NCBI GenBank assembly: GCA_947311635.1
Contig: CAMZLD010000120.1
Span: forward strand, 1-41,160
Length of the DNA: 41,160 nt
Direction: 5' to 3'
Origin: an uncultured Flavobacteriaceae bacterium
GTDB taxonomy: Bacteria > Bacteroidota > Bacteroidia > Flavobacteriales > Flavobacteriaceae
The notes beneath the pieces were generated by a model that saw only the letters and a list, made by a program, of their open reading frames with translations, was not told where the DNA came from and searched no databases. Each line of letters starts with the position of its first letter. The stretch's first letter is position 1. The position numbers and the translations under genes are program-made. Positions 31,916 through 37,067 of the stretch are shown piece by piece.

Positions 31916-32344
31916 TTATTTTTTAATTTTTTGAGGCCAAAGGTAATACCCCGTTACGGCACCAAAGATTAAAAAAATGAGATGCATCCACATTGGTAAA
32001 GGCGTTTGTATATATCTTCCTAAAAGAAAAATGATAAGTGCCATTAATAGTAAAACAACAATACCTGTTAGCTCTGGTATTGTTTTAGCGTCTTTCCCTC
32101 TACAAATAAACAGATGCGCTGCTAAGACACCCCAAACCCAGGTAATTACAAAAAGTTTGTCATGTGCATTGGTATGTATAACACTACTTATAGTATCATG
32201 ATGATTACGATATAAAAAAATATCCCAAATAATAAGAAAAACGGTTATTGCAATGACCACATATTGAGTATAGACAATGGCTTTACTTTTAAAAGCTGCT
32301 GTTACTTTATTTTTAGTTTGTATATTAAATTCTGATAGTTTCAT
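31916..32344 (-). CDS. Hypothetical membrane protein
   Basis: Several TM segments; related to the following ORF (DTIS...WGVLAxHxF). Confidence 0.65.
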   Translation of the reverse strand: MKLSEFNIQTKNKVTAAFKSKAIVYTQYVVIAITVFLIIWDIFLYRNHHDTISSVIHTNAHDKLFVITWVWGVLAAHLFICRGKDAKTIPELTGIVVLLLMALIIFLLGRYIQTPLPMWMHLIFLIFGAVTGYYLWPQKIKK

Positions 32345-32349
32345 CTAGA

Positions 32350-32724
32350 TTAATTTAAAGACCAAAAAAAGTGCCCCATAAACATCCCAAAGAGTAATAA
32401 AACTATTTGTCCGCGTGCTTTAATTCTTTTTCCTAAGACCTTTCCGAAGGTAAAAAAAAGGAGTGCAATAGCTAGAATAAGTGATAAACCAATCAACGAA
32501 TTATCAAATGGAGGGTTTTGGGTTCCTAAAAAAAAATGCCCTGCCAAAACACCCCACAAGTAGGTAATAAAAAAATACGAACGGTACACCCAACCTTTTA
32601 AAATATTGCTAATGGTATCACCTTCGGTTTTATTAAGGTATAAATACATATCGAAAATGATGATAATACCTAGAATACCTATCAAGCCTTTCTCTACAAT
32701 ATGTGCTGTGTCTAGGTAATTCAT
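32350..32724 (-). CDS. Hypothetical membrane protein, likely divergent paralog of 31916..32344
   Basis: Several TM segments; YLNKTEGDTISN...FFITYLWGVLAGHFF. Confidence 0.65.
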   Translation of the reverse strand: MNYLDTAHIVEKGLIGILGIIIIFDMYLYLNKTEGDTISNILKGWVYRSYFFITYLWGVLAGHFFLGTQNPPFDNSLIGLSLILAIALLFFTFGKVLGKRIKARGQIVLLLFGMFMGHFFWSLN

Positions 32725-32730
32725 TATGAT

Positions 32731-34116
32731 TTATAGTATATCTTTTATTTCTGAAATAATACGGTCTGCTAATGTATCTGCATTGCTTTGTGTTGTACTT
32801 TCTGTATAGACTCTAATTATTGGCTCTGTGTTCGATTTTCTTAAATGTACCCATTCTGATTTGAAATTAATTTTAACACCATCTACAGTATTCACATCTT
32901 CATGCTTATATTTAGCTTCCATTGCTTTTAGAATTGCATCAACATTAATTTGTGGCGTTAATTGTATTTTTTTCTTGCTCATAAAATAGTTTGGATAACT
33001 ATCTCTTAAAGCTTTGCATGACATTTTAGAAATGGCTAAATGCGATAAAAATAAAGCGACACCTACAATAGAATCTCGACCATAATGGGATGCTGGGTAA
33101 ATAATACCTCCGTTGCCTTCACCTCCAATAATGGCATTGTTTTCTTTCATACCTATAACAACATTGACTTCTCCTACTGCGCTTGCGGTATATGTACCCT
33201 GATGCTTTTCTGTAATGTCTCTAAGCGCCCTTGAAGATGATAAATTTGAAACGGTATTTCCGCCTTTTTCTTTTCCTAATACATAATCTGCACAAGCTAC
33301 TAATGTATATTCTTCACCAAACATTGATCCGTCTTCACTTACCAAAGCCAATCTATCTACATCTGGATCTACAACAACGCCAAGATCTGCTTTTTCTGAA
33401 ACAACAAGTTTTGAAATTTCTGTTAAATTTTCTTTTAATGGCTCTGGATTATGAGGAAATTGTCCGTTTGGTTCACAATACAATTCTATACACGCTACGC
33501 CTAATTTTTTTAATAACTTTGGAATGATAATGCCTCCTGTTGAATTTACGGCATCAACAACGACTTTAAATTTTGCTGCTTTAATTGCAGCAATATCAAC
33601 GTGTTTTAGCTTTAAAACTTCATCTATATGTTTTTCCATATAGCCTTTTAGTTTGCTATACTTTCCTAGATCATCTACTTCTGCAAAAGTATAGGCATCA
33701 TTTTCGGCTATTTCTAAAATCTTATTTCCTTGTGCTCCATTAATAAATTCTCCTTTATGGTTTAATAACTTTAGAGCATTCCATTGTTTTGGGTTGTGGC
33801 TTGCTGTTAAAATTATACCGCCATCTGCTTTTTCTAAAGCAACGGCAACTTCTACTGTTGGGGTTGTTGACAACCCTAAATCAACCACATTAATCCCAAG
33901 ACCAACTAGGGTGTTTGCTACTAAACTACTAATCATTTTACCAGAAATTCTAGCATCTCTTCCTAAAATAACGGTAAGTTTTTTTGAATTATTTTGAGAT
34001 ATTAGCCAAGTTCCGTAAGCTGCTGCAAATTTTACAGCATCTACAGGTGTAAGGTTTTGATCTACTTTACCGCCAATGGTGCCTCTAATACCAGATATAG
34101 ATTTTATTAATGTCAT
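32731..34116 (-). CDS. glmM: Phosphoglucosamine mutase
   Basis: SISGIRGTIGGKVDQNLTP, ILTASHNPKQWNALK, DPDVDRLAL, GEGNGGIIYP, RKSNTEPIIRVY. Confidence 0.88.
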   Translation of the reverse strand: MTLIKSISGIRGTIGGKVDQNLTPVDAVKFAAAYGTWLISQNNSKKLTVILGRDARISGKMISSLVANTLVGLGINVVDLGLSTTPTVEVAVALEKADGGIILTASHNPKQWNALKLLNHKGEFINGAQGNKILEIAENDAYTFAEVDDLGKYSKLKGYMEKHIDEVLKLKHVDIAAIKAAKFKVVVDAVNSTGGIIIPKLLKKLGVACIELYCEPNGQFPHNPEPLKENLTEISKLVVSEKADLGVVVDPDVDRLALVSEDGSMFGEEYTLVACADYVLGKEKGGNTVSNLSSSRALRDITEKHQGTYTASAVGEVNVVIGMKENNAIIGGEGNGGIIYPASHYGRDSIVGVALFLSHLAISKMSCKALRDSYPNYFMSKKKIQLTPQINVDAILKAMEAKYKHEDVNTVDGVKINFKSEWVHLRKSNTEPIIRVYTESTTQSNADTLADRIISEIKDIL

Positions 34117-34227
34117 TTTCTTGTTTTTGCACAAATATAATTGAATAAGTTGGTTCTAAAAACTATCTCTAAATTTAAAACGTGAATCATATACGTTATA
34201 AGATGAGTTTTATCTTTTACTAATGGC

Positions 34228-34536: not shown

Positions 34537-36870
34537 TTAATTTCCTTCTTCCATTTTTCTTTTCAATTCTGCTAGCCCGCCGATATCACCTAAAGTGGTT
34601 TTATCTGCTTCTGAAGCCTTTTTGGCTGCTGCTCTCATATTTGTTCTTTCTTGTTCTTTAAAAATTGCTGTATGTGATGCTACAATTCTTCTGTAATCTT
34701 TATTAAATTCTAAGATTTTGAAGTCTGCTGTATCTCCTTTTACAATTTTAGAGCCATCTTCTTTTTCTAAATGACGTCCTGGCACAAATGCCTCTACATC
34801 ATTTTCAAAAGTAATGATTGCACCTTTGTCTGTTTTTTCTTTAACAGTTGCTTGGTGTACAGAGTCTATTGCAAAAGTTTTTTCATGCTCATCCCAAGGG
34901 TTTGCTTGCGTTTGCTTATGACCTAAATTCAACTTACGATCTTCTACATTTAATTCTAAAACTTTTACTTCTAGCTTATCTCCTACTTTTACAAAATCAG
35001 ATGGATGTTTCACTTTTTTAGTCCATGATAAATCAGAAATATAAACCAACCCATCAATTCCTTCTTCTAGTTCAACAAAAACTCCAAAGTTTGTGTAATT
35101 TCTTACTGTACCTGTATGAGTTGAACCTATTTCGTATTTTTTAGTAATATCTGTCCAAGGGTCTGGTTGTAACTGTTTAATACCTAGAGACATTTTTCTA
35201 TCTTCTCTGTCTAAAGTAAGTATTTTAGCTTCAATTTCATCTCCAACAGAAACAAAATCTTGAGCAGAACGTAAATGTGTAGACCAAGACATTTCAGAAA
35301 CGTGAATAAGGCCTTCTACTCCTTTTTCTACTTCTAAGAATGCGCCATAATCTGCAATTACAACTACTTTACCTTTAACAACATCACCTACTTTTAATTC
35401 TTTATCTAGAGCTTCCCAAGGATGATCACTTAATTGTTTTAATCCTAATTGAATTCTAGATTTTTCTTCATCAAAGTCTAATATTACAACATTTAATTTT
35501 TGATCTAATTCTAAGAATTCGCTTGGATGATTAATTCTACTCCAAGATAAATCTGTAATATGTACCAAACCATCTACGCCTCCTAAATCTACAAATACAC
35601 CGTAAGAAGTAATATTTTTAACAATACCTTCTAATACTTGTCCTTTTTCTAATTGGCTTATGATTTCTTTTTTCTGAAGTTCAATATCTGCTTCAATTAA
35701 TGCTTTATGAGAAACAACTACGTTTTTAAACTCATGATTAATTTTTACTACTTTAAACTCCATGTTTTTATCAACATACTGGTCGTAATCTCTAATTGGC
35801 TTTACATCAATTTGAGATCCTGGTAAGAAAGCTTCAATTCCGAAGATATCTACAATCATACCGCCACGAGTTCTACATTTAACATGACCGTTAACAACTT
35901 CTCCTGTGTCATGGGCAGCAATAACTCTATCCCACGCCTTTATTACACGTGCTTTTTTGTGCGAAAGTACTAATTGACCTGTACTATCTTCTCTAATATC
36001 TACTAAAACCTCTACTTTATCTCCAACTTTTAAACCTGGATTGTAACGGAATTCGTTTAAAGAAATAACACCTTCAGATTTTGAATTGATATCAATTATG
36101 GCTTCACGATCTGTCATGTGTGTTACCGTACCTTCAATTAACTCTCTTTCTTTAATAAAACCAAGTGTACCTTCTAAGGCTGCGTCAAAAGCTTTTAGTT
36201 TGCTCTCGTCAACTTCTTCTATGCCTTCTTCGTATTTATGCCAATCAAATTCTGCTAAGAATTTTTTTGGATCTACTTTTTCTTTTTTTACAGCTTTTTC
36301 TTCAGTTATTTCAACAACTTCTGCTTCTACTGCATCTTTTGTTACTGTTTTAGCTACTTTTTCTTTATTTTCAACAACAGCATCTTCAGATACTTCTTTA
36401 GTTGTAGCTTTAACTGGTGTAGCAACTTCTTGTTTAACTTCTTTAGTTTCAGCTATTTTATCAACTTTTTCTACTTTTGGAGCTTTCTCTTTTTTGGGTG
36501 CTTCTTTTTTTGCTTCTTTTACTGGAGCATCATCACCATAAACATCTTGCTTAGAAAATGCTTCTACTAAAAGCGTATAAAATATAGCTCTGTATTTATT
36601 TCTATTTGAAGAACCAATGGTTTCAACGGTTTTTGCAATTGCTTCGTCAAGTTTAGGGCTATCTTCTAATCCTAATTTTTTGATTAAAAAATTCTTTTTA
36701 ACCGTTGCCAATTCTTTCTCATCAGAACTAGATACTGTTTCTGCATCTGCTCTGTAAATTGATGGACCTAAACCTTTGGTTACTTTTGCTAATAAGGTAG
36801 TGTCGATTTTAATACCTAGTTTTTCAACTTCTGCAGTATAAAAATCTATTTTTTCTTGTAATTTAGACAT
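34537..36870 (-). CDS. rpsA: Ribosomal protein S1 (six S1 repeats) with in-frame N-terminal DUF2853-like domain and charged linker
   Basis: aa ~1-112 DUF2853-like (TKGLGPSIYRADAETVSSSDEKELATVKKNFLIKKLGL...SSNRNKYRAIFYTLL); aa ~113-200 K/E/A/V-rich; aa ~201-777 flavobacterial S1 (EGVISLNEFRYNPGLKVGDKVEVLVDIRED..., GYGVF-type repeats). Confidence 0.92.
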   Translation of the reverse strand: MSKLQEKIDFYTAEVEKLGIKIDTTLLAKVTKGLGPSIYRADAETVSSSDEKELATVKKNFLIKKLGLEDSPKLDEAIAKTVETIGSSNRNKYRAIFYTLLVEAFSKQDVYGDDAPVKEAKKEAPKKEKAPKVEKVDKIAETKEVKQEVATPVKATTKEVSEDAVVENKEKVAKTVTKDAVEAEVVEITEEKAVKKEKVDPKKFLAEFDWHKYEEGIEEVDESKLKAFDAALEGTLGFIKERELIEGTVTHMTDREAIIDINSKSEGVISLNEFRYNPGLKVGDKVEVLVDIREDSTGQLVLSHKKARVIKAWDRVIAAHDTGEVVNGHVKCRTRGGMIVDIFGIEAFLPGSQIDVKPIRDYDQYVDKNMEFKVVKINHEFKNVVVSHKALIEADIELQKKEIISQLEKGQVLEGIVKNITSYGVFVDLGGVDGLVHITDLSWSRINHPSEFLELDQKLNVVILDFDEEKSRIQLGLKQLSDHPWEALDKELKVGDVVKGKVVVIADYGAFLEVEKGVEGLIHVSEMSWSTHLRSAQDFVSVGDEIEAKILTLDREDRKMSLGIKQLQPDPWTDITKKYEIGSTHTGTVRNYTNFGVFVELEEGIDGLVYISDLSWTKKVKHPSDFVKVGDKLEVKVLELNVEDRKLNLGHKQTQANPWDEHEKTFAIDSVHQATVKEKTDKGAIITFENDVEAFVPGRHLEKEDGSKIVKGDTADFKILEFNKDYRRIVASHTAIFKEQERTNMRAAAKKASEADKTTLGDIGGLAELKRKMEEGN

Positions 36871-37067
36871 GTGTCTATTAAATTTGTATCTTGCTGTTAT
36901 TCAGATTATTAAACGATAATAAAAACAAGAGGTTTTTAAAAAATTTGTTTTTTGGTGCCCTTTTTAAATCTGTTCTCGTAAAAAGGAGTGCAAATTTACA
37001 AAATCTAATTTAATTTACCAAGTGCTAAACCACTGAAATTAAGCATTTTTCTATTCAATAAATTAGT

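Follow-up and report, generated by a model that had tools for sequence, protein, structure and literature searches.

A DUF2853 domain fused through a charged linker to ribosomal protein bS1 in a lineage of marine Flavobacteriaceae

The analyzed window comprises 41,160 nucleotides, corresponding to positions 1 to 41,160 of contig CAMZLD010000120.1 from an uncultured Flavobacteriaceae bacterium (assembly GCA_947311635.1). On the minus strand, a single, unbroken reading frame (34537..36870) encodes a protein of 777 amino acids and about 85 kDa, which according to ORF, Pfam, NCBIfam and AlphaFold2 (AF2) analyses consists of a DUF2853 domain, a linker and ribosomal protein bS1 (gene rpsA). The DUF2853 domain covers residues 1-112 (36535..36870), the linker residues 113-200 (36271..36534), and the complete bS1 region with its six S1 barrels residues 198-775 (34546..36279). 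The S1 N-terminal motif FLAEFDWHKYEEGIE is located at residues 204-218 (36217..36261) and was found by alignment also in unfused flavobacterial S1 proteins. The rpsA leader extends from the promoter-like sequence TAAATTTG (36998..36991) to the start codon (36871..36998, minus strand). Downstream of rpsA, a phosphomannomutase/phosphoglucomutase gene (32731..34134, minus strand) was assigned by Pfam and synteny; a phosphomannomutase gene occupies this position in several relatives with fused and unfused rpsA. On its 3′ side, two mutually similar small ORFs of 142 and 124 codons (31916..32724, minus strand) encode membrane-protein-like sequences for which Pfam gave no match.

The N-terminal domain could be assigned by sequence and by predicted fold. 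Residues 11-108 matched PF11015 over profile positions 2-100 of 101 with 119.6 bits (E = 1e-34), the curated cut-off of this family being 25 bits, and residues 8-112 matched the DUF2853 protein of Jannaschia in the PDB (2pyq, E = 7e-29). The AF2 model of the isolated domain had a pLDDT of 91 and was similar to 2pyq in a Foldseek search (E = 8e-9, TM 0.89/0.88, 51% identity), which revealed no other significant fold relative in the PDB. EF-hand and S100 proteins appeared as remote candidates with E > 2, which is not evidence for a relationship. An alignment of 89 fused and stand-alone DUF2853 domains contained 36 near-invariant positions, all of which are kept in the fused domain. Full-length match, invariant residues and fold are thus shared with the known family, whereas its usual form is a free protein of about 112 amino acids and the domain described here is fused to S1 and falls on a separate branch of the domain tree. 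A described function for DUF2853 was not found in the open-licence papers, the sole DUF2853 paper merely annotating a Bartonella gene.

The linker is dominated by a few residues (21 K, 17 E, 16 V and 12 A in about 88 amino acids). In the full-length AF2 model, which was based on an alignment of 17 fused homologs, a confident N-terminal domain and six S1 barrels were obtained, and the linker showed pLDDT values of about 26-37, as expected for a disordered segment. Neither ATG nor GTG nor TTG occurs among the linker codons, and codons 105-207 as a whole are free of start codons. The only in-frame ATG between codon 1 and codon 260 is codon 252, GTG is absent before codon 260, and the single TTG (codon 54) lies inside the DUF2853 domain. 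No conserved start codon was found in the linkers of relatives either. An internal start yielding a normal S1 is therefore ruled out. The original prediction, made from the letters of the window, had proposed an uninterrupted 777-residue fusion with a DUF2853 N terminus, a K/E/A/V-rich linker, a six-repeat S1 and no methionine codon between residues 1 and 252, and the analysis bore out each of these features.

Residues 198-775 matched the NCBIfam model of 30S ribosomal protein S1 (NF004953) with 907 bits over model positions 3-578 of 580, and each feature tested places the window protein in both the DUF2853 and the bS1 family. A search for S1 proteins in 36 genomes revealed one full-length S1 per genome, which in carriers of the fusion was the fused form; a second, normal S1 was not found in them. 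This result holds for carriers with intact contigs, as in two genomes (G170 and G248) the S1 gene is split across two contigs. Since the carriers have just one full-length S1, the fused protein is the S1 of the cell. In one further genome (G293:C3, about 295063-296911), the S1 frame is seemingly split into two overlapping frames, which may reflect a sequencing error or a frameshift.

In E. coli, bS1 docks on uS2 at the mRNA exit via a helix preceding the first OB domain and a lysine-containing loop (PMC10123108). The E. coli helix formed by residues 3-11 aligned with KAFDAALEG of the window S1, in which the equivalent of Phe5 is kept and that of Phe9 is Leu. The Lys43-type loop is retained as SKSEG. 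In the uS2 protein of the same genome, His18 and the zinc-pocket residues are kept and Phe32 is replaced by Tyr. With the contact residues largely kept, anchoring of the fused S1 to uS2 appears plausible.

The standard flavobacterial bS1 (NF004953; PDB 9zcd, 591 amino acids) has the same six S1 domains, the N-terminal FxxxFDWHxYEEGIE motif, the leader and the position upstream of the phosphomannomutase gene, but lacks the preceding DUF2853 domain and long charged linker. Unfused S1 frames in Flavobacteriaceae mostly comprise about 590-655 codons. Several unfused S1 proteins (genomes G020, G160, G004 and G071) also possess a long K/E/A/V-rich extension of up to about 150 residues before the S1 motif, but carry no DUF2853 domain at its tip; the type of tether is thus not unique to the fusion. 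A precedent for an unrelated domain ahead of S1 repeats in a single chain is the IspH-S1 fusion (NF000907, PRK00087), in which, however, the partner is HMBPP reductase, the S1 part belongs to another subfamily and the N terminus is not homologous.

Fused and unfused rpsA genes have in common a promoter-like sequence of the Bacteroidota type (TANNTTTG) near position -128 and a leader of about 125 nucleotides ending in a GATACAAA-type element. Because promoter-like site, leader and start position are common to both gene types, DUF2853 was inserted exactly at the native S1 start, and the conserved start position means that the fused frame is naturally placed for translation. Covariation supported four helices in the leader (all minus strand): helix a, TCCTTTTT/AAAAAGGG (36987-36980 with 36965-36958); helix b, ACGA/TCGT (36979-36976 with 36916-36913); helix c, CAGATT/AATCTG (36972-36967 with 36907-36902); and TCTTG/CAAGA (36930-36926 with 36893-36889). 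In these helices, 85.7% of the alignment cells were paired compared to 47-60% in slid controls, 131 double-sided changes were counted compared to a mean of 43 after shuffling, and none of 500 shuffles reached the observed score. The first three helices follow the order a-b-c-a'-b'-c' and thus cross one another, forming a pseudoknot or alternative structures (a switch). A model of the leader matched in 48 of 60 relatives, almost always once, and the match was located directly 5′ of rpsA in the genomes where the positions of both were compared. The leader is conserved in front of fused and unfused rpsA across Flavobacteriaceae and, as matches occurred also in other families of the order, apparently in other Flavobacteriales. 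Rfam contained no family matching it at the gathering score, matches below this score being at chance level. The natural reading is that the leader represents a candidate S1 autoregulatory RNA.

The original prediction had proposed a survey of the architecture, and the fusion was indeed present in 36 of the 80 named genome records nearest to the fused DUF2853, with two further sequences reaching a contig end. Carriers include the cultured species Aureibaculum marinum, A. luteum and A. flavum, records attributed to Urechidicola croceus, many Lutibacter-like MAGs and two closed single-contig genomes (G136 and G025). In a sample of 400 Flavobacteriaceae genomes, in which DUF2853 was taken as fused when its frame greatly exceeded the length of a stand-alone protein, at least 9 of 237 genera were positive. 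Among 396 genomes from across the phylum, all DUF2853 sequences seen outside this flavobacterial lineage were stand-alone forms. The linkers of the fused proteins vary from about 45 to about 135 residues. The fusion is the architecture of one marine flavobacterial lineage and thus more than an oddity of a single genome. We found no published account of it in the open-licence papers; "unreported" is a limited claim, because the literature covered was open-licence only and databases list architectures automatically. A published count of S1 domains left out those S1 entries that carry other kinds of domain as well (PMC6705787) and could therefore have missed S1 fusions by design.

The DUF2853 family was present in 264 of the 400 Flavobacteriaceae genomes, and its stand-alone form also in other classes. 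Most carriers of the fusion additionally encode a stand-alone paralog, which had been named as a point to check for the window genome. It is present there at G000:C1:11002-11337 beside a yaaA-like gene and shares 90% identity with its stand-alone counterpart in another carrier (G334). In the closed genome G025, no DUF2853 besides the fused one was found. None of the loci examined had translation genes adjoining a stand-alone DUF2853 gene. The dnaK, serine dehydratase and yaaA-like genes located within 5 kb mainly reflect shared Lutibacter synteny and were uninformative as neighbors. In Sulfurovum/Campylobacterales MAGs, stand-alone DUF2853 genes close to the flavobacterial forms lie 3′ of gyrB-like genes, possibly as a result of transfer.

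In the domain tree, constraining 43 fused DUF2853 domains to one clade was compatible with the data (p-AU 0.71) and gave a likelihood above that of the free search. Fission as a source of the stand-alone copies was rejected, as the fused domains group apart from the stand-alone paralogs, although the copies of Sulfurovum and Sphingobacterium were poorly resolved near the fused group in this tree. Monophyly of the fused S1 proteins was rejected in the S1 tree (p-AU 0.001), where several unfused groups, Lutibacter being one of them, branch from within the fused ones and at least five changes are needed. The two trees are most simply explained by one fusion event and several subsequent losses; repeated gains or transfers are also possible. 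The rejected monophyly suggests that DUF2853 was apparently lost several times, and the unfused S1 proteins inside the same lineage indicate that, on an evolutionary time scale, the fusion is dispensable. In close pairs, dN/dS was about 0.05-0.19 for the DUF2853 part (excluding pairs that differ by only a few changes), 0.007-0.09 for the S1 part and 0.08-0.32 for the linker. Purifying selection acts strongly on the fused DUF2853 domain, and the low dN/dS together with the retained near-invariant residues shows that it is maintained while present.

In E. coli, the recruitment of mRNA requires bS1, and initiation in Bacteroidota proceeds largely without Shine-Dalgarno pairing. In F. johnsoniae, bS1 promotes initiation on an mRNA lacking a Shine-Dalgarno sequence (PMC9976891). 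We consider it probable that the only bS1 of the carrier cells bears the tethered DUF2853 domain as an accessory module near the mRNA exit of the 30S subunit. By analogy to E. coli, the first OB domain of bS1 and the helix preceding it would dock on uS2 at this site. Since the matching helix and loop and most uS2 partner residues are retained, DUF2853 would hang next to the mRNA exit, held close to the channel at S1 stoichiometry by a disordered tether of about 90 residues, and the mRNA-exit side of the 30S subunit appears to be its most likely location. There, it could serve as an accessory binding module with mRNA, nascent 30S complexes or a partner protein as ligand, in a bacterial group that seldom uses Shine-Dalgarno pairing.

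The original prediction had likewise read the domain as an accessory module of the small subunit. Its premise that the fused protein is a real S1 gained support from the sole S1 per genome, the native leader, the uS2-anchor residues and the signature of selection; the further step from the fusion to a role of DUF2853 in translation remains an inference. A wider version, in which DUF2853 generally assists the ribosome or translation as an accessory module, helping to select or hold mRNAs where Shine-Dalgarno pairing is nearly absent when permanently tethered to S1 at the 30S mRNA exit, and working transiently at the same site as a stand-alone protein in other bacteria, is possible but rather doubtful. 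As most carriers have a stand-alone DUF2853, the S1 context is not the general working place of the family. The link of an uncharacterised family to the ribosome provides a handle on the action of DUF2853 and on the adaptation of S1 in Bacteroidota ribosomes, and the cultured Aureibaculum strains make the role of the fused domain testable.

A different explanation is that DUF2853 has an unrelated job and that the abundant S1 only sets its level, the ribosomal site being incidental. The widespread stand-alone proteins in Flavobacteriaceae and other classes, their loci free of translation neighbors, the long disordered linker that leaves the domain free to act, and the closed genome G025 with DUF2853 found only in the fused form are all consistent with this explanation. 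We nevertheless regard it as unlikely, since extra dosage of one activity gives little reason for a fusion when most carriers possess a separate DUF2853, and the retention of a single origin across many genera points to a use specific to the lineage. Still less probable is a near-neutral fusion, i.e., one chance capture that was tolerated, repeatedly lost and functionless in the S1 context. The several losses implied by the S1 tree and the variable linker length would fit, but a neutral passenger would decay, whereas this domain, subject to strong purifying selection, has retained its invariant residues.

Cleavage of the chain within the linker into separate S1 and DUF2853 proteins is very improbable: such a long, exposed and disordered segment would be open to proteases, but it changes rapidly (dN/dS up to about 0.3, variable length) and no conserved cleavage site is evident. 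Finally, the window genome is fragmented (80% complete, 139 contigs), but an assembly chimera or a missed stop codon in the linker is ruled out, because the Aureibaculum marinum, luteum and flavum isolates and the closed genomes G136 and G025 show the identical architecture.
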